From positions 2,046,001 through 2,110,000 of the forward strand of contig NZ_CP013862.1 of the NCBI RefSeq assembly GCF_001307805.1: DNA of 64,000 nucleotides. Direction: 5' to 3'. Below are positions 5,030-24,005 of this stretch, piece after piece. Both the position numbers and the translations under genes were made by a program. The notes below the pieces were generated by a model. It was given only the letters and a program-made list of their open reading frames with translations. It was not told where the DNA came from and did not search any database. Position 1 is the stretch's first letter. Each line of letters opens with the position of its first letter. Origin of the DNA: Lentibacillus amyloliquefaciens. GTDB lineage: Bacteria > Bacillota > Bacilli > Bacillales > Amphibacillaceae.

Positions 5030-6334
5030 ATGAATTTCTCAACATCAAAAGCATTGCATGACGAAGCGCTTAACCATATTGTCGGAGGCGTCAACTCCCC
5101 GTCGCGTGCCTATAAAGGGGTTGGCGGCGGTACACCTGTTTACATGGATCATGGAAAAGGGGCCTATTTCTGGGACGTCGATGGCAATCAATACATTGAT
5201 TACCTCGGCGCTTACGGACCAATTATTACCGGCCATGGCCACCCGCATATCGCTGAGGCCATCTCTAATGCTGCAAAAACCGGCGTTTTATACGGCACAC
5301 CGACAAAGCTTGAAAATCAATTCGCGAAAATGCTGAAATCAGCTATCCCGTCTCTTGAAAAAGTGCGATTTACCAATTCCGGAACAGAAGCTGTGATGAC
5401 AACCGTCCGGGTAGCCAGAGCTTATACAGGCCGGAACAAAATCATCAAATTCTCCGGTAGCTATCACGGCCACTTTGACTCAGTGCTGGTTGAAGCCGGG
5501 TCTGGCCCGGCAACATTGGGAACCCCGGATTCAGCAGGCATTCCGCAATCAGTTGCTGAAGATGTGATTACCGTTCCGTTTAATGATACGGATACCTTCC
5601 AGAAAGCCATGGAGCGATGGGGAGACGAAATGGCAGCTGTTCTTGTTGAGCCGATCGTCGGCAACTTCGGTATTGTTAAACCGCATGATGGATTTTTAAA
5701 GCGTGTTAATGACATAGCACATGATGCAGGTTCATTAGTTATTTATGATGAAGTCATCACCGCATTTCGGTTCACTTACGGAAGCGCACAGCAGATTTAT
5801 GGCGTCACGCCGGATATGACCGCAATGGGTAAAATCATCGGCGGCGGCCTGCCAATCGGAGCATACGGCGGCAGGCAGGATATTATGGAACAAGTCGCAC
5901 CGCTTGGGCCTGCTTATCAATCCGGAACAATGGCCGGAAACCCCGCCTCGATGGCTTCAGGCATTGCCTGTCTGGAAGTACTTCAGGAACCGCGCGTTTA
6001 TGAAGAACTGGATCGCCTCGGCGAACGCCTTGAAAATGGCATTTTAGAAAAAGCATCCGAGGCAGGAATCCCAATTTCTGTCAATCGCATGTGTGGCGCA
6101 TTGACTGTTTACTTTGGCACTGATTCTGTGGAAAATTATGACGAAGCTGATGCAAGCGATGGTGATGCATTTGCCCGATTCTTCCATCTGATGCTTGAAG
6201 AGGGCATTAATTTAGCACCATCCAAATTTGAAGCATGGTTTTTGACCACTGAACACACTGATGAGGATATTAATGCAACCATTGAAGCAGCCGGCAAAGC
6301 GTTTGCTGCCATGACAGAGGACCAGAAAAGGTAA
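5030..6334 (+). CDS. gsaB: Glutamate-1-semialdehyde 2,1-aminomutase
   Basis: A 434-residue PLP enzyme that converts glutamate-1-semialdehyde to 5-aminolevulinate in C5 tetrapyrrole synthesis. Signatures are [11 protein letters not shown] near the N-terminus, the NSGTEAVM cofactor motif, [11 protein letters not shown], and the PLP lysine in [14 protein letters not shown]. The ATG at 5030 follows TTGGAGGCAGTACGA; a TTG 15 bp upstream is less likely because it overlaps the ribosome site. By synteny this is the second paralogue (gsaB), separate from the hemAXCDBL operon. Confidence 0.93.
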
Positions 6335-17149: not shown

Positions 17150-17359
17150 TTGGATGTCATCGATCTTTTAAGCAAAATCAACTGGGGTGTAATAGCACCA
17201 TTGATCGTTATTCAATTCATTTTGCTGATTGTTGCGGCTATAGACCTTATCCGTGCGGAAAAAACAAATGGGCCAAAGTGGATGTGGATTCTGGTCATTA
17301 TTTTGATTAACTTTGTTGGACCGGTTCTTTATTTTATTTTTGGAAGGAGAAACGACTAA
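17150..17359 (+). CDS. yxlE: Small PLDc_N-type membrane protein (YxlE-like)
   Basis: A 69-residue protein with two membrane segments, LIVIQFILLIVAAIDLI and MWILVIILINFVGPVLYFIF, joined by a short loop. This is the phospholipase-D N-terminal (PLDc_N) membrane module. The TTG at 17150 is chosen because GGAG lies 8 bp upstream; an ATG at 17132 lacks a ribosome site. In B. subtilis yxlE, yxlF and yxlG form part of the sigY operon, and YxlE helps restrain SigY. Here the next two genes match yxlF and yxlG but no sigma gene is present. Confidence 0.75.
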   Translation: MDVIDLLSKINWGVIAPLIVIQFILLIVAAIDLIRAEKTNGPKWMWILVIILINFVGPVLYFIFGRRND

Positions 17360-17360
17360 A

Positions 17361-18269
17361 ATGATCTTGCTAAGCGCAGACAATTTAACCAAAATTTATG
17401 ACCGCCAACCTGTAGTCGACAGAGTCAGCTTCAAGTTTGAATCCGGTAAATGCATCGCCCTGATTGGTCCAAATGGTGCCGGTAAAACAACAACACTCAG
17501 AACGCTTTCAGGATTAATTAAGCCGACAAGCGGAACCATTACATTTGCTGGTAAGAAACAAAATGCTGATAATCGGGAATCAATTGGCTATTTGCCGCAG
17601 CACCCTGTCTTTTTTAAATGGATGAGTGGGAAAGAGTTCCTTGTCTATGTCGGCCGTCTTGCTCATTTATCCAAACAGAAATCCGTTAAACGAGCGGAAA
17701 AACTGCTTGAGCGTGTCGGCCTTTCAGAATCCGCTAATAAAAGAATCGGCAAATATTCCGGCGGCATGAAACAGCGGCTCGGCATTGCTCAGGCGATGAT
17801 TCACCAGCCAAAGCTGCTGATGCTTGATGAACCGGTATCCTCACTCGATCCGATTGGCAGACGGGAAGTACTGACATTAATGGAAGAGCTGAAAAACGAT
17901 ATAACGATTTTATTTTCGACACATATTTTAAGTGATGCGGACGAAGTGAGTGATGAATTACTGCTCCTGCATGAAGGCAGAATCATGGAATCAGGATCAA
18001 TGACTGACCTTCGGGAAAGATATCAAACTGCCAAAATTGAACTCAGTTTTGAAGGGGATTTAATCGTCTACAGGGAAAAGCTAAACGCCCTTAAGCATGT
18101 CACAAATTCGTGGATCGACCGCGGGTATCTTCATGTGACCGTCAGCGATATGACAGCAGCCCGGCATGATATTTTAGCAGCCGCTTCAGCTGAAGAATGG
18201 GCACTTACATCTTTCAGCATCAACCGGACTTCTCTTGAAGATATGTTCATGAAGGCGGTGAAGAGCTGA
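17361..18269 (+). CDS. yxlF: ABC transporter ATP-binding protein (YxlF-like)
   Basis: A 302-residue ATPase with Walker A GPNGAGKTT near residue 35, signature YSGGMKQR, Walker B LLMLDEPVSSLDP and switch His in FSTHIL. The C-terminal extension of about 90 residues is usual for NosF/CcmA-type ATPases. The ATG at 17361 follows AAGGAGAAACGACTAAA, 1 bp beyond the previous stop, and its own stop overlaps the permease ATG. The substrate is unknown. Confidence 0.9.
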   Translation: MILLSADNLTKIYDRQPVVDRVSFKFESGKCIALIGPNGAGKTTTLRTLSGLIKPTSGTITFAGKKQNADNRESIGYLPQHPVFFKWMSGKEFLVYVGRLAHLSKQKSVKRAEKLLERVGLSESANKRIGKYSGGMKQRLGIAQAMIHQPKLLMLDEPVSSLDPIGRREVLTLMEELKNDITILFSTHILSDADEVSDELLLLHEGRIMESGSMTDLRERYQTAKIELSFEGDLIVYREKLNALKHVTNSWIDRGYLHVTVSDMTAARHDILAAASAEEWALTSFSINRTSLEDMFMKAVKS

Positions 18270-19045
18270 TGCAATGGTGGGTGCTTTTTCATAAAGAATT
18301 AGTAGAAAACGTTCGCAATGTGAAATGGATCTGGGTCCCGCTGGTTATGATACTGATTGCTGTCATGGACCCGCTGACTAACTATTACTTGCCGCAAATT
18401 ATTGAAGCAACAGGCGGGCTGCCGGATGGAACACAAATTGACCTGCCGGAATATCAGCCGAGTGACGTCGTTATGTTGAGTCTCGGTCAATTCAACACGA
18501 TTGGCGTGGCAATCATTGCTCTTATATCAATGGGGACCATTGCCGGTGAGCGTAAAAGCGGCGTGTCGGAACTGGTTCTTGTTAAGCCCGTTTCCTATAC
18601 GAATTACATTACAGCCAAATGGGCTTCAACTGCCTGTTTGATACTGGTTTCCTTTGCGCTTGGCATGCTTGCCAGCTGGTATTATATCAATTTGTTATTC
18701 GGTGAATTATCGTTTGGTGCACTACTGCAGGTACTGTTTTTTTACGGATTATGGTTCATGCTTGTTGTGTCACTGTCGATTTTTTACAATGCCATATTCA
18801 AAATACCAGGACTGATTGCATTCTTGACAATCGCAACAGTTGGACTCATCAGTATAGTGACATCAGTTTTTTCCCATGTCCTTGAATGGAGCCCCAGCCG
18901 CATCTCCCCATATATTCAGCAAATGGTGATTACGGGCAATGCTCCATCAGACTTAACCTGTGCGGCTATCGTGACAGGCATCATGATTGGATTGCTGTTA
19001 ATCGCCTCAGTCATGATATTCAGGAAAAAGGAAATGGCAAGTTAA
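18269..19045 (+). CDS. yxlG: ABC transporter permease, NosY/YxlG type
   Basis: A 258-residue ABC-2 type permease with six predicted membrane segments and the early motif MGTIAGERKSGVSELVLVKPVS, a cytoplasmic loop common to this family (shown here only as a landmark). It begins with the ATGA overlap at 18269, so translation is coupled to the ATPase. Together with the PLDc_N protein it forms a three-gene exporter operon. Confidence 0.88.
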   Translation: MQWWVLFHKELVENVRNVKWIWVPLVMILIAVMDPLTNYYLPQIIEATGGLPDGTQIDLPEYQPSDVVMLSLGQFNTIGVAIIALISMGTIAGERKSGVSELVLVKPVSYTNYITAKWASTACLILVSFALGMLASWYYINLLFGELSFGALLQVLFFYGLWFMLVVSLSIFYNAIFKIPGLIAFLTIATVGLISIVTSVFSHVLEWSPSRISPYIQQMVITGNAPSDLTCAAIVTGIMIGLLLIASVMIFRKKEMAS

Positions 19046-19111
19046 AAGGAGGTTGGGGCAAAGGCGCTTTATTTAAAAAATCCGAATTAACTAGATATGG
19101 CTGGTACATAC

Positions 19112-19233
19112 AACCCGCTCCGGAAAAATACTCCGCTTTCCGCGGGCGGCTGGTGAGCCTCCTCGTGCTGGCGCACTGCGGGGTCTCACCTATGCCTATG
19201 CTCCCGCAGGAGTCTTCGCATATTTCCTCCGCT
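19112..19233 (+). repeat. Dispersed GC-rich repeat, module 1
   Basis: The copy runs from ACCCGCTCCGGAAAAATA through CTCCGCTTTCCGCGGGCGG, CTGGTGAGCCTCCTCG, CTGCGGGGTCTCACC and CCCGCAGGAGTCTTCG to TATTTCCTCCGCT. The ends form an imperfect inverted repeat (GGAAA-TAC / TATTTCC). An inverted copy lies at 30657-30778. Confidence 0.75.
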
Positions 19234-19288
19234 CAAGTAGCATATTGTTCGTCTTTAAAGTTGGCCGTTTTAATTATGTCCAACCCTT

Positions 19289-19996
19289 CTATTTCACTTT
19301 AACGGTTGTAATTCGCCGCAAAAACAAGAAGGATATACCATAAATCACCACTCCAATACCGAACAGCTGATAAAAGAATATAAGGTCAATGCCGGTAAAT
19401 ACATCAACAACGAAATCAATGAGCCATCCCTGTGCGATGCCTAACAGACTGATAAGGAGCAGTACACCAAGGAAGCTCCCTCCGCCGGCTATGCCATATT
19501 TATAGAACAACAAGCCTATCATGAACATAGCTGCCAGGAAGAAAAACATGATGGCTGTATCAATGACAATGCGTGTATACCATGTGCCATCCAGGAAATA
19601 AGCCGGGTGAAGAAATAAAAAGAAGTCGACTCCTGTTGCGTTCATTAACGCCATGACAAGCTCCTGCAGACCAGCCGCAGCAATAGCCATGGCCAGAGAG
19701 AGCATAAGAAAAAATCCACCTGATCCGACAAAAATATTTTTGCGTGTGGCACTCATCTTGATTAAAAATGGTACTGAATCTTTAACCGTCAGGAATCCCA
19801 AAATAGCGCAGTAAACATACATTGGCCCTGTCAGGCTGAACGTAAAAAGTGTCACCTCATTATCCAAACCTGCCAGAAAGTAAGTGAATGCCAGTGAAAC
19901 AACCAATATAGACAGTAAAATCGTCCAGAAAATTGTGAGTGAGTAACGCAAATCTGATCCGAAAAAATAAAGCAATTCTTTTATTTGTCTTCCCAT
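19289..19996 (-). CDS. ABC-2 type permease, partner of the GntR-controlled ATPase
   Basis: A 235-residue membrane protein with six predicted membrane segments and the N-terminal LLYFFGSDLRYSLTIFW typical of permeases in ytrA/yhcF-type operons. Its ATG (19996) is 7 bp beyond the 3' end of a group II intron. No ribosome site lies in the intron tail before it. When the intron is removed in silico, AAGGAGG from the 3' end of the ATPase gene falls 12 bp before this ATG. It is therefore the third gene of the GntR-ATPase-permease operon, split by the intron. Confidence 0.85.
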   Translation of the reverse strand: MGRQIKELLYFFGSDLRYSLTIFWTILLSILVVSLAFTYFLAGLDNEVTLFTFSLTGPMYVYCAILGFLTVKDSVPFLIKMSATRKNIFVGSGGFFLMLSLAMAIAAAGLQELVMALMNATGVDFFLFLHPAYFLDGTWYTRIVIDTAIMFFFLAAMFMIGLLFYKYGIAGGGSFLGVLLLISLLGIAQGWLIDFVVDVFTGIDLIFFYQLFGIGVVIYGISFLFLRRITTVKVK

Positions 19997-20050
19997 TGGC
20001 TAATAGCGATAGGTAAGTTTTTGAAGTTATCTTCAACTTTTCCCCCGCTC

Positions 20051-20088
20051 CACACCATACGAGCGGCTTTCACCGCATACGGCGTTCC
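20051..20088 (-). ncRNA. Group II intron domain V
   Basis: On the minus strand CGCCGTATGCGGTGAAAGCC folds with CGCTCGTATGGTG into the two-part stem of domain V, with a GAAA tetraloop. This is the catalytic core of the ribozyme. Confidence 0.8.
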
Positions 20089-20170
20089 ATCAACACTTAA
20101 AGATTTGTGTGCTCCTAAGTCTGACAACTTACCATGTATTCATCATCATTCAAATTATTTTAGATATTGA

Positions 20171-22054
20171 TTATTGTTTAATTTTCTTGTTTCCCACTGA
20201 CTTACGCAACTTGTTAAGCTTATGAAGCTGCTGTTCATTAAGCTTTAATATCGCTAGATATTCATTGATAGTATCGGTTCTTATTGCATGTATAAGCGCA
20301 TGTGCTTCGGGTTTTATGAGCGTCAAGTTGTTATAGCTGTCATCATGTGTTAGGTGGTACGGTTTTTTATGATGACAGTGCATATCAGTTATTTCTAATT
20401 CCTCTTCTGTTACGGAGCACCTACCATATTGCGCGACATACAAGGAAATCCTGTTATCATTAAATTCGACCGTTGCACGGTCATTTATTACAGGGTGTTC
20501 TCGTAGCCATTGAAGTGAAGCTTCGGACACAGCCTTTTGATTGTCATGAATTAGTTTTCTACCTTGTGAGGTATATTTATTAATGTATGTTTTAGGGTAC
20601 ATAGGCTTTCGGTGCCGTACGTAACTCACAGGAATTATGGGTCTACCGAGCAGGTATCTCATATTCTTCGAATTTGTGTATCTGACTATACCTTTATCCT
20701 TTCCGGTATATTTTCCAGTTTTAGATAGTCCAGAATTTATCAATCGGGTATTCATTGTTAAAAGCACTGGGTAGTGAATTTTCTTGAAATCCTTATTGAC
20801 ATGTGTGGCTATCCTATAGTAGTTGTGCATTCCTATAACTTTACTATTGTACTTGCCAATTGCTCTAATCCCGTCAGCACGTCTAGGAGCTTTCTGAATC
20901 TGTATTATTTGTGCTTTTAGTTCCTGTTTCATTCGATTAATAGCTTTGGTGCATATATGGGAATGCATAACATAGCGATTTTTGCCTTTTCTTTCTAACT
21001 TTAGTGAGAAACCTAAAAACTCGCTTTCTTCTTTACGAAGGTAAGTGATCTTGGACTTCTCCTCCGATATTGGCAAACGTAAACGTTCTTCTAACCACTG
21101 CTTACAAGCATGATATAGTTTTTCTGCTGTTTTTCTATCCGGGCAGAAAACCTTGAAATCATCACCATATCTTACGAAATAGCATTCCTTAAGATTAGTA
21201 TGTGAGCGCATTTTTTTATGGTGATTTCCCATGTGTTCAGTCCCATTGGAATTGTATTGGGTTTTTATCTCCGACATTCTTCGATTTTCCCATTGATTCG
21301 CTATCCACCAATCGAACTCATTGAGATTTACGTTAGCAAGTAATGGCGATAAAATACCGCCTTGCATCGTTCCTTTCGTCGGTGTGAATACTTTTCCATT
21401 TGGAAATTGTATCGGCGACTCCAACATTTTCCTGATAATGACTAGGACTTGTTTATCTCGTATTCCCATAGCCCAGAGCTGCCTAATTAGTTTTGAATGC
21501 CATACTTCATCGAAGAATCCTTTGATATCTATATCGACCACATATTGCATTTTGATGATATTCATCTTCTTTGCACAGTCGGCTATTGCGTGTTCCGTTG
21601 ATTTATTTGGTCTGAAACCGTGACTATGTGAGTTGAATTTTGCTTCACATATTGGCTCTAAAACCTGTAAGAAACATTGTTGTGCTATTCTGTCCCATAT
21701 AGACGGAATACCCAGTGGGCGTTTCTTACCGTTTGGTTTCGGTATTTCTACTCGTTTAACCTTTCTTGGTTTATAACACGCAAACCTTCTTTTCACGATG
21801 TTTAGAAATTCATCAGTGTCCAGTATCTCAATATCTTTAATTGTTTTACCATCTACACCTGTTGTTGTACTTCCGCCATTTCGTTTTATATTTCTATATG
21901 CCAAAAGAATATTGTTATCAGATGTAATGATTTTCATGAGTGATTTGAAATTTTGGTTTTCGACACTTCTTTGATAGAGTTTATCGTACACTTCTTGCAT
22001 ACCGTAGTATTCCGAATGTCTGAGTTTTCTATCTTTGTGTCTAATGTTGTCCAT
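20171..22054 (-). CDS. ltrA: Group II intron reverse transcriptase/maturase with HNH endonuclease
   Basis: A 627-residue LtrA-type protein. The RT fingers/palm occupy about residues 60-350 with RPLGIPSIWDRIAQQ, HGFRPNKST, DIDIKGFFD and GTMQGGILSPLLAN. The catalytic motif reads RYGDDFKVFC (296-299), where group II RTs usually have YADD. The maturase domain is about 370-520. A C-terminal HNH nuclease holds C546, C560-H561-H562, NNL and HALIH. All domains are full length, so the intron may be mobile. The start follows GGGGGTGACGAACT. Confidence 0.93.
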   Translation of the reverse strand: MDNIRHKDRKLRHSEYYGMQEVYDKLYQRSVENQNFKSLMKIITSDNNILLAYRNIKRNGGSTTTGVDGKTIKDIEILDTDEFLNIVKRRFACYKPRKVKRVEIPKPNGKKRPLGIPSIWDRIAQQCFLQVLEPICEAKFNSHSHGFRPNKSTEHAIADCAKKMNIIKMQYVVDIDIKGFFDEVWHSKLIRQLWAMGIRDKQVLVIIRKMLESPIQFPNGKVFTPTKGTMQGGILSPLLANVNLNEFDWWIANQWENRRMSEIKTQYNSNGTEHMGNHHKKMRSHTNLKECYFVRYGDDFKVFCPDRKTAEKLYHACKQWLEERLRLPISEEKSKITYLRKEESEFLGFSLKLERKGKNRYVMHSHICTKAINRMKQELKAQIIQIQKAPRRADGIRAIGKYNSKVIGMHNYYRIATHVNKDFKKIHYPVLLTMNTRLINSGLSKTGKYTGKDKGIVRYTNSKNMRYLLGRPIIPVSYVRHRKPMYPKTYINKYTSQGRKLIHDNQKAVSEASLQWLREHPVINDRATVEFNDNRISLYVAQYGRCSVTEEELEITDMHCHHKKPYHLTHDDSYNNLTLIKPEAHALIHAIRTDTINEYLAILKLNEQQLHKLNKLRKSVGNKKIKQ

Positions 22055-22765
22055 AGTTCGTCACCCCCTTAGAAGTTCCTGGTTGTGACCTTTTGGTCTT
22101 ACGGGAAATCTATGGTAATGACTTAGGTTTCTTTTCTTTATAATGTTGACTTGTGACTGTTGCTCTACTTCCATTACAGAAGTTTCAAAGCTCATGTCAC
22201 TACTTTCATCAAGATTAAACTAGGTTATTAATAATTCTTAGTTCCCTAGTAACGCTTCATTGTCTGTGTAAACTCCACGTTCTTGACTTCCCACGTTCCC
22301 TTAGTTCTATCAATGCTATGGTTTAGGTGCTGACTTTTGCCCTGTACCACTTCAAGTGCCTATAACACTCCACGGAGTTTCATAAAAACAATTCTTACTC
22401 CACCGCATGATACAATAGAATAACCTTCTTATTTCAAGGCTCTACCCGACACATTTCTATGCCTTAGGCGTTTAGGACAGTACATTCGCCAGTTCGTCAG
22501 TGCTTCTGCACATTCTCACCATGCCAAGCTTTTTACGACTTCCGGCATATAATCTATGGACGATGCCTCCACCGCCCTTTCGGTTGGTGTTACCACTACT
22601 ACGATAAATTTCTGCCGTCTTCACCGAGCTTCATACCACTTTCGATTACACATATCTACTTGTCGCATGTCGGAGTATTAAAGGGGCGTTTCAAGGCGTT
22701 ACCCTATCATTCCACCTCTCGAACTAAGAGTTCTCCACTAAAATTTGTTAGTGTGTCTAGTCTTT

Positions 22766-23638
22766 TCAACTAGCAACGTGTCGCGCTGCTCCCTCCTTCT
22801 CTGTCAAATAAATCATCAATTCCTGAATTGGTATGCTCTCAACCGTCAACCCGGCTGACTCCGCCTGCACCATATTTCCGAAGACATACGCTGTCATCAT
22901 GCCGGCAAGCTGCTTACTCTGGAAAACTTCCTTATCGCTGGTAAATTGTTCAACATCCTGTATAGGACCTGATACTGCATAAGCGTGCTCACGCAGCGTG
23001 TCAGCTTCTTCCTGCAAGACCAGTTTTCCTTCCTGCAGTATAAGCACTTCTTCAAACATGAGACTGACTTCATCAATTAAGTGGGTTGAGAAGATAATTG
23101 TCCGCTTCTCCGCTTCATATTCTTCGAGTAAAATATCGTAAAACTTCTTGCGGGCGGCAGCATCAAGTCCGATATAGGGCTCATCAAAGATCGTAATCGG
23201 CGCCTTGCTTGCCAGCCCGACGATAATGCCGAGAGCTGAAGCCATGCCTTTCGATAATGTTTTAACTTTGGCATTCAGACTCAGATTATATTCGCGTATC
23301 AATTCATCTGCCAACTTCTGGTCCCATGTCGGATAAAAATAAGCATAAATTTTGAGGACATTTTTAACCTTTAAATCCTTTTTAAAATTATCGCCTTCTT
23401 TGATCAGACAAATGGACTCCGTCAGCCGCTGATTATCAAACGGTTTTTCCCCGTCAACCAGAATCTCGCCCTCGGAGGCTAAAATGTGCCCCGATAAAAT
23501 TTCCATGAACGTGGTCTTCCCTGCGCCATTTCGTCCCAGAAGACCGTAAATTTTTGGCTCTGATAACGCAAACGAAACATCATCCAGTGCTTTCGTATCT
23601 TTATATGCTTTCGATACATGATTAACCTCAATTTTCAT
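22766..23638 (-). CDS. ABC transporter ATP-binding protein (YtrB-like), 3' end altered by intron
   Basis: An ATPase of 290 residues as read through to 22766, with Walker A GRNGAGKTT, signature TLSKGMAS, Walker B ITIFDEP and a switch-His STHLID. The last six residues (ARHVAS) are encoded by the 5' end of the group II intron; in the spliced message the protein ends TEKEGA followed by TAG. It starts inside the last codons of the GntR gene (11-bp overlap), after GGAGGAGAACCATC. The signature LSKGM replaces LSGGQ, common in this subfamily. Confidence 0.9.
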   Translation of the reverse strand: MKIEVNHVSKAYKDTKALDDVSFALSEPKIYGLLGRNGAGKTTFMEILSGHILASEGEILVDGEKPFDNQRLTESICLIKEGDNFKKDLKVKNVLKIYAYFYPTWDQKLADELIREYNLSLNAKVKTLSKGMASALGIIVGLASKAPITIFDEPYIGLDAAARKKFYDILLEEYEAEKRTIIFSTHLIDEVSLMFEEVLILQEGKLVLQEEADTLREHAYAVSGPIQDVEQFTSDKEVFQSKQLAGMMTAYVFGNMVQAESAGLTVESIPIQELMIYLTEKEGAARHVAS

Positions 23639-24005
23639 GATGGTTCTCCTCCCTGTTCACCATTTCCAATAACTCACTTTTATTGATTTTTAATTTGGTT
23701 GCCTCATCCTTTAATGGCAGGACATAATGTTCATAAAACGTCTGTTTGCGCTTCCCGATTAAAATTGTTTCGGCATCTTCAGTCACAAACATCCCGACAC
23801 CCCTCCGTTTCACTAGGATACCTTCATCCACCAGCTCATTGGTCCCTTTCGCTGCAGTCGCCGGGTTAATCCGATAGTACTTGGCAAATTCATTTGTGGA
23901 CGGAACACGCTCGCCCGGCTTGATTGTTCCATTGATGATCGCATCTTCCAGATACTCTTTGATCTGCTGAAAAATAGGTTTATTTTCATCCAACTGCAAT
24001 TTCAT
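23628..24005 (-). CDS. GntR-family regulator, YtrA subfamily
   Basis: A 125-residue repressor with an N-terminal winged helix-turn-helix (residues about 10-75, including GTIKPGERVPSTNEFAKY) and the short helical C-terminal dimerisation region of the YtrA subfamily, not a FadR/UTRA ligand domain. It is the first gene of a regulator-ATPase-permease operon. A 40-bp near-palindrome covers its own -10 region, so autorepression is likely. The start follows AAGGAGCCTCATT. Confidence 0.9.
   Translation of the reverse strand: MKLQLDENKPIFQQIKEYLEDAIINGTIKPGERVPSTNEFAKYYRINPATAAKGTNELVDEGILVKRRGVGMFVTEDAETILIGKRKQTFYEHYVLPLKDEATKLKINKSELLEMVNREENHHEN

Follow-up and report, generated by a model that had tools for sequence, protein, structure and literature searches.

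A group II intron between a Shine-Dalgarno sequence and its start codon in an ABC transporter operon of Lentibacillus amyloliquefaciens

In a stretch of 64,000 nucleotides (nt) from Lentibacillus amyloliquefaciens (contig NZ_CP013862.1, positions 2,046,001 to 2,110,000; hereafter, the window), a complete group II intron on the minus strand separates the Shine-Dalgarno (SD) sequence at the end of an ATP-binding cassette (ABC) transporter ATPase gene from the ATG of the gene that follows it in the operon. The intron and its boundaries, the empty sites in relatives, the SD strengths, the pairing between intron and 5' exon, and the near-identity with a copy at a topoisomerase site were all established by sequence analysis. 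Taken together, they make it likely that an intron homing to topoisomerase-like genes strayed recently into an SD that resembles its usual target, and that translation of the downstream gene came to depend on splicing in a passive manner.

The element was assigned to group II by sequence tests, which found a domain 1 core, 3'-terminal domains 5 and 6, an internal reverse transcriptase (RT)/maturase, and pairing between exon-binding sites (EBSs) of the intron and intron-binding sites (IBSs) of the 5' exon (Table 1). The Rfam match to domains 5 and 6 stops exactly at the proposed 3' splice site, position 20003. The RT/maturase open reading frame (ORF) has no internal stop and scores 344.3 bits against TIGR04416, the group II RT/maturase model (cutoff, 300); hints of an HNH-like C-terminus fell below the Pfam cutoff. 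Its RT motif reads YGDD (residue 296), compared with YADD in five of the six relatives checked; neither form was detected by the motif search in the remaining one, L036. The ORF is preceded by a strong SD of its own (-11.5 kcal/mol). By DNA similarity, the genome carries one copy of the intron, together with two further domain 5/6 matches.

Excision of positions 20003-22786 yields ...AAG GAG GGA GCA / TAG CCA ATG, and GGAGCATAGCCAATG is the sequence predicted across the joined exons. The same junction was found uninterrupted in relatives. We took the best 30 loci for the ATPase from a search of 100 related genomes, one of which was the window itself; in all 29 others (L003-L031), the intron was absent and the junction agreed with the rebuilt one. 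The ATPase stop codon lay at the rebuilt place or at most seven codons away, the next start codon followed a few nucleotides on, and in 27 of these loci the alignment of the downstream protein began at its first residue. The nearest relative (G002, locus L003) reads AAG AAG GGA GCA TGA CCG ATG at this point; its DNA is 87.3% identical to the window in the ATPase gene and 88.6% in the downstream gene, both without gaps. The original prediction, made from the window sequence before any relative was compared, had placed a group II intron between the SD and the start codon and had described the exon junction produced by its excision. The Rfam matches, the RT/maturase ORF and the empty sites confirm the first point, and the junctions in relatives match the second; a differing junction in intron-less relatives had been named as grounds for refutation, and none of the 29 loci differed. 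The SD indeed lies in the 5' exon and the ATG in the 3' exon, with the predicted spacing of 12 bp corrected to the 11 nt that we counted between AAGGAGG and ATG in the joined RNA (8 nt for the GGGAG register).

We compared translation starts with and without splicing by computing SD duplex energies with a nine-base anti-SD sequence. The energy was -12.7 kcal/mol for the joined region and +1.7 kcal/mol for the unspliced region. Against 300 ORFs picked mechanically from the same genome, an approximate background in which the first ATG was taken as the start, a value of -12.7 kcal/mol or lower occurred in 1% of the ORFs and at none of 2,000 random positions, whereas 98% of the sampled ORFs had an SD at least as strong as +1.7 kcal/mol. 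The 29 empty loci gave values from -7.9 to -12.3 kcal/mol. In the unspliced RNA, the ATPase frame runs on through ARHVAS as a 290-amino-acid ORF (22766-23638), as predicted, and the downstream ATG is left without a usable ribosome site, again as predicted. An in-frame TAG two codons ahead of this ATG excludes an N-terminal extension supplied by the intron. Because the SD is in the 5' exon and the start codon in the 3' exon, the unspliced RNA has no usable SD, and such an extension is excluded, translation of the downstream gene is expected to depend on splicing, and we conclude that it probably does. Some leakage from unspliced RNA is possible at an in-frame TTG at codon 7 of the downstream gene, which has a weak SD-like stretch (-4.2 kcal/mol). 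The splicing-dependent synthesis of a "permease" claimed in the original prediction thus stands as an expected consequence as far as splicing is concerned, but the 235-amino-acid protein had no Pfam or NCBIfam match, so that the permease label rests on operon position.

The closest related intron, in L. jeotgali (L032), differs from the window copy by 5 mismatches in 2579 nt and follows GTGAAGGTGAAAACA in a Toprim-domain ORF, in which DCDREGEN is read up to the intron. Around position 5847 of that locus, the copy breaks off close to the end of its own intron ORF and gives way to unrelated sequence, so that the topoisomerase-like gene looks broken. G007, a genome of the same genus, shares both the intron and its 5' exon; judging from contig coordinates, it is probably the assembly of the window over again. 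Copies in Enterococcus encode an intron protein 74-75% identical to that of the window, with approximately 72% DNA identity over the full length. All nine enterococcal junctions that we read, at L111-L113 (three genomes) and L115-L120 (five plasmids, with L115 and L116 on one plasmid that was read without its last 16 kb), occur at the same DREGEN codons of the TOPRIM motif, in several topoisomerase alleles. Among plasmids, 375 records matched the intron, 59 of them with 80% coverage; in 30 of the 40 matches listed, a toprim or topoisomerase annotation lay under the match, and the four without it that were opened (H5, listed again as H79; H9, listed again as H94; H91; and H95) were, by sequence, also topoisomerase-site copies. 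The clade members that we read sit at DREGEN, and the window copy sits in an ABC operon instead. No other ectopic copy was seen among the nine enterococcal junctions and L. jeotgali, which all fall in topoisomerase-like genes; more distant enterococcal introns (approximately 44%, e.g., L062) sit elsewhere and were outside the clade count. In phages, 13 records showed partial similarity and none reached 80% coverage.

The exon-recognition elements were located by covariation in 22 of 37 aligned introns, each considered with its own 5' exon; the window copy and near-duplicate sites were excluded, and loci without a located 5' end never entered the set. The two best covarying segments of the scan were EBS1 (intron nt 397-402 against exon positions -1 to -6), with a mean pairing of 0.89 compared with 0.43 for swapped exons, and EBS2 (nt 317-321 against exon positions -7 to -11), with 0.69 compared with 0.31. 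By eye, L036 and L042 pair poorly at EBS1, and the EBS1 sequence of the window is identical in L033-L035. A candidate EBS2 at nt 347-351 was rejected, as the alignment shows a variable hairpin there and covariation places EBS2 at nt 317-321. Since IBS2 is AGGAG and IBS1 is GGAGCA, the pairing target of the intron takes in most of the SD (22792-22797). The window site forms 10 of 11 pairs (seven Watson-Crick and three G-U, with one A-G mismatch), compared with 10 or 11 of 11 pairs, including 8 to 11 Watson-Crick pairs, at five variants of the home site. The EBS2-IBS2 duplex is weaker at the window than at home (-2.8 vs -5.9 kcal/mol).

From these observations, the following course of events can be proposed. 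A retrotransposing intron whose home is the DREGEN motif in the topoisomerase-like genes of mobile elements would have inserted at a look-alike SD. In the precursor RNA, the SD would be split from its start codon and base-paired into the ribozyme through EBS2 and EBS1; as these sites pair with the SD itself, the SD should be masked until splicing. Forward splicing would then join the SD to the AUG and allow the second gene to be translated, and a failure to splice would give an ATPase with six additional residues and almost no translation of the second gene. The dependence would be passive, with no regulated switch.

Several points weigh against this interpretation. Splicing at this site in the cell, the direction of transfer, the recency of the insertion and the effect on translation are what we infer from sequence. 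The usual 5' end of group II introns is GUGCG; here it is GCGCG, a form shared by some relatives and by the intron of L. jeotgali. Without a 3' end, the L. jeotgali copy cannot itself be a working donor. This ABC operon seems to be absent from L. jeotgali, and no empty site is available there. Finally, the EBS1-IBS1 duplex is not weaker at the window (-2.3 kcal/mol) than at home (-2.2 kcal/mol), so the poorer fit of the window site rests on EBS2 and on the count of Watson-Crick pairs.

The alternative with the best standing, to which we give a modest chance, is that the main effect of the intron is to reduce operon expression, with the free intron re-pairing with the SD/IBS, reopening the joined exons and cutting the mRNA between the SD and the AUG. 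The spliced Ll.LtrB intron is reported to reopen joined exons through EBS-IBS pairing and to lower its host mRNA (PMC6003770), and by analogy the same may apply at the window site, where the pairing target is the SD itself; the weaker EBS2-IBS2 duplex speaks against it. Exon reopening is compatible with passive splicing-dependent translation and could add to it. It is also conceivable, albeit unlikely, that no splicing occurs at this site and that the second gene is off or leaks via the codon-7 TTG. Such a dead insertion would fit the imperfect pairing at the exon-binding sites (three G-U pairs, one mismatch), the GCGCG 5' end and the weak SD-like sequence before codon 7, but the domain 1 and domain 5/6 models match at full length, the maturase ORF is intact, all six EBS1 positions pair (wobbles included), and the energy of the EBS1 duplex is as at home.

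Two proposals would make the intron a control device. One, which we regard as improbable, is that the ribozyme holds the SD, so that translation would be gated by forward splicing and undone by exon reopening, giving a reversible, RNA-only on/off control exploited by the cell or the element. The other, quite improbable in our estimation, is a regulated switch. The original prediction spoke of a switch on ABC exporter assembly; in the form considered here, splicing efficiency would follow a signal, and the ratio of second protein to ATPase would be set in this way. Such control is compatible with the layout, with the SD and the start on different exons and the SD serving as IBS, and the group I precedent cited in that prediction agrees with its source: in Clostridioides difficile, splicing by an allosteric ribozyme responsive to c-di-GMP puts a ribosome-binding site before a start codon (PMC3984707). 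The likeness is that here, too, splicing is predicted to bring a ribosome-binding site to a start codon; the differences are that the C. difficile element belongs to group I and has an aptamer as well as a shifted 5' splice site, and that no aptamer was seen at the window intron. At gathering thresholds, the Rfam matches in the window were confined to the two parts of the intron and included no riboswitch, an unknown aptamer being beyond the reach of that scan. Moreover, the window intron is a near-identical copy of the topoisomerase-site intron, shares its exon-binding sequences, meets the window site, to which it is not adapted, with wobbles and a mismatch, and is missing from every relative locus read. 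We therefore do not retain the switch. A general tendency of the lineage to target SDs, whose core AGGNG pairs with EBS2 and is resembled by the DREGEN codons (GARGGNGAR), is extremely unlikely even though the window site is an SD, given that the other junctions of the clade that we read are all in topoisomerase-like genes and that, among 917,472 strand positions sampled from this genome, only 2 of the 167 sites pairing as well as the window site lie 2-13 nt before the start of a frame of at least 100 amino acids (1.2% vs 0.78% of all positions), so that arrival at an SD appears to be a matter of chance and not of preference.

The stray insertion favored here resembles what has been described for the Ll.LtrB group, whose home site is a conserved motif within a conjugation gene and for which one ectopic retrotransposition, in SK11, is likely (PMC5072309); control of the host mRNA through EBS-IBS pairing is likewise a feature of Ll.LtrB. 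In that group, however, the home is a relaxase gene and the SK11 copy lies in a cell surface protein gene. Introns are also known at or adjoining translation signals, such as the stop codon of Azotobacter groEL (PMC4465626), the space between two start codons for F3 of T. elongatus (PMC2882425), and the site of C.te.I1 in Clostridium tetani (PMC3919590). These insertions are at or beside start or stop codons, as in the window, but the portions of these sources available to us describe no arrangement with the SD in the 5' exon and the AUG in the 3' exon. Lineages of the Azotobacter groEL type are reported to have a large 5' insertion and to insert habitually at stop or start codons (PMC4465626); in the present clade, the nine enterococcal junctions and the L. 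jeotgali junction are inside coding sequence. The Enterococcus plasmid introns belong to the same clade, but those read lie inside DREGEN coding sequence and the window copy lies between the SD and the start of another gene; the L. jeotgali intron is near-identical, but is at a topoisomerase site and lacks its 3' end. In a literature search that left subscription journals mostly outside, no group II intron splitting an SD from its start codon was found in the text available.

Other splits of this kind were sought in genomes. We surveyed 130 introns (30 loci and 100 stretches) from the best-scoring matches for 397 genomes of the same order; some from many-copy genomes were skipped, and lower-scoring matches, the window's own included, fell outside the list. 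In 22 of the 130, a start codon at most 20 nt from the 3' end opened a frame of at least 50 amino acids (40 where the stretch ended before the frame did). Inspection by eye put most of them inside genes, L180, L194, L211 and L222 not being so assignable; L194 has an SD-like GGGAGGGGGG in its 3' exon. Rfam was run on 20 of these 22, and 5' ends were located for only part of them. We also searched for an SD followed by an intron 5' end, as AGGAG N1-9 GYGYGAMACGTT, a pattern that covers one 5'-end type. It occurred in 15 of 398 genomes of the same class, compared with 5 genomes for the reversed control (counted from the table); the other 14 had no Rfam intron at the gathering threshold, which leaves the window copy as the only recognized intron with AGGAG 1-9 nt before a 5' end of this type in these 398 genomes. 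Among viruses, 93 stretches matched the pattern and were examined with a crude motif script, and the 8 of them scanned with Rfam gave no match.

On the minus strand, the order is GntR-family regulator, ABC ATPase, group II intron and 235-amino-acid gene (Table 1). Two plus-strand ORFs at 17313-19045, which by eye look like a second ABC ATPase and a membrane partner, converge on the intron-bearing operon, and an intergenic repeat lies between the convergent genes at 19076-19287. Counting this copy, the repeat has 44 matches in the genome; L. jeotgali has dozens.

Table 1. Coordinates of the intron, its recognition sites and the neighboring genes in the window
Feature	Position	Strand	Basis
Complete group II intron, 5' GCGCGAC ... 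CGCTAT 3'	20003..22786	-	Rfam matches near both ends; boundaries from empty sites of relatives and aligned ends of related introns
Domain 1 core, RF02004 (group-II-D1D4-5)	22531..22735	-	Rfam, 158.3 bits
Domains 5 and 6, RF00029 (Intron_gpII)	20003..20087	-	Rfam, 55.5 bits, model positions 1-77 of 77
Intron-encoded RT/maturase, 627 amino acids	20171..22054	-	TIGR04416, PF00078, open frame
EBS1, UGUUUU, intron nt 397-402	22385..22390	-	Alignment and covariation
EBS2, CGCCU, intron nt 317-321	22466..22470	-	Covariation
IBS1, GGAGCA, exon -6 to -1	22787..22792	-	Position by covariation; 3 Watson-Crick and 3 G-U pairs
IBS2, AGGAG, exon -11 to -7, inside the SD	22793..22797	-	Position by covariation; 4 of 5 pairs, one A-G mismatch
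SD of the downstream gene, AAGGAGG	22792..22798	-	Sequence; duplex energy
5' exon: ABC transporter ATPase gene through GGA GCA, last codons containing the SD of the next gene	22787..23638	-	PF00005; 29 relative loci
ARHVAS and TGA, translated from unspliced RNA only	22766..22786	-	ORF list
TAG, first bases of the 3' exon, stop of the spliced ATPase frame	20000..20002	-	Sequence; relatives
3' exon gene, 235-amino-acid protein, ATG at 19996-19994	19289..19996	-	ORF list; relative loci
GntR-family regulator, upstream gene	23628..24005	-	PF00392

A related intron group, whose proteins show 37-54% identity in the best segment, is found behind a common motif of the type GTGAA..AATG.ACT (5' ends at L050, L056, L057, L058, L064 and L076, with a variant at L054; 3' ends also at L071 and L074), and its 3' exon opens with TAA followed by a G-rich stretch. 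Once joined, this motif may represent a conserved element without coding function; no empty copy was found with a strict pattern in the fetched loci. The large Listeria and Bacillus phages MZ422438.1, KU878088.1 and MF360957.1 have short matches (81-89%) to the 3' end of the intron, and the match in AR9 lies under RNA polymerase beta-prime and homing endonuclease annotations.

On present evidence, the window holds an unusual insertion of an ordinary mobile intron, and a new regulatory device is not shown. The insertion illustrates how an intron homing to a conserved motif can end up in a host operon, and it shows an SD in the role of intron-binding site. It also offers a natural test case for the effects of a group II intron that splits a translation start region, since the translational output of the second gene should be a direct readout of both splicing and exon reopening.

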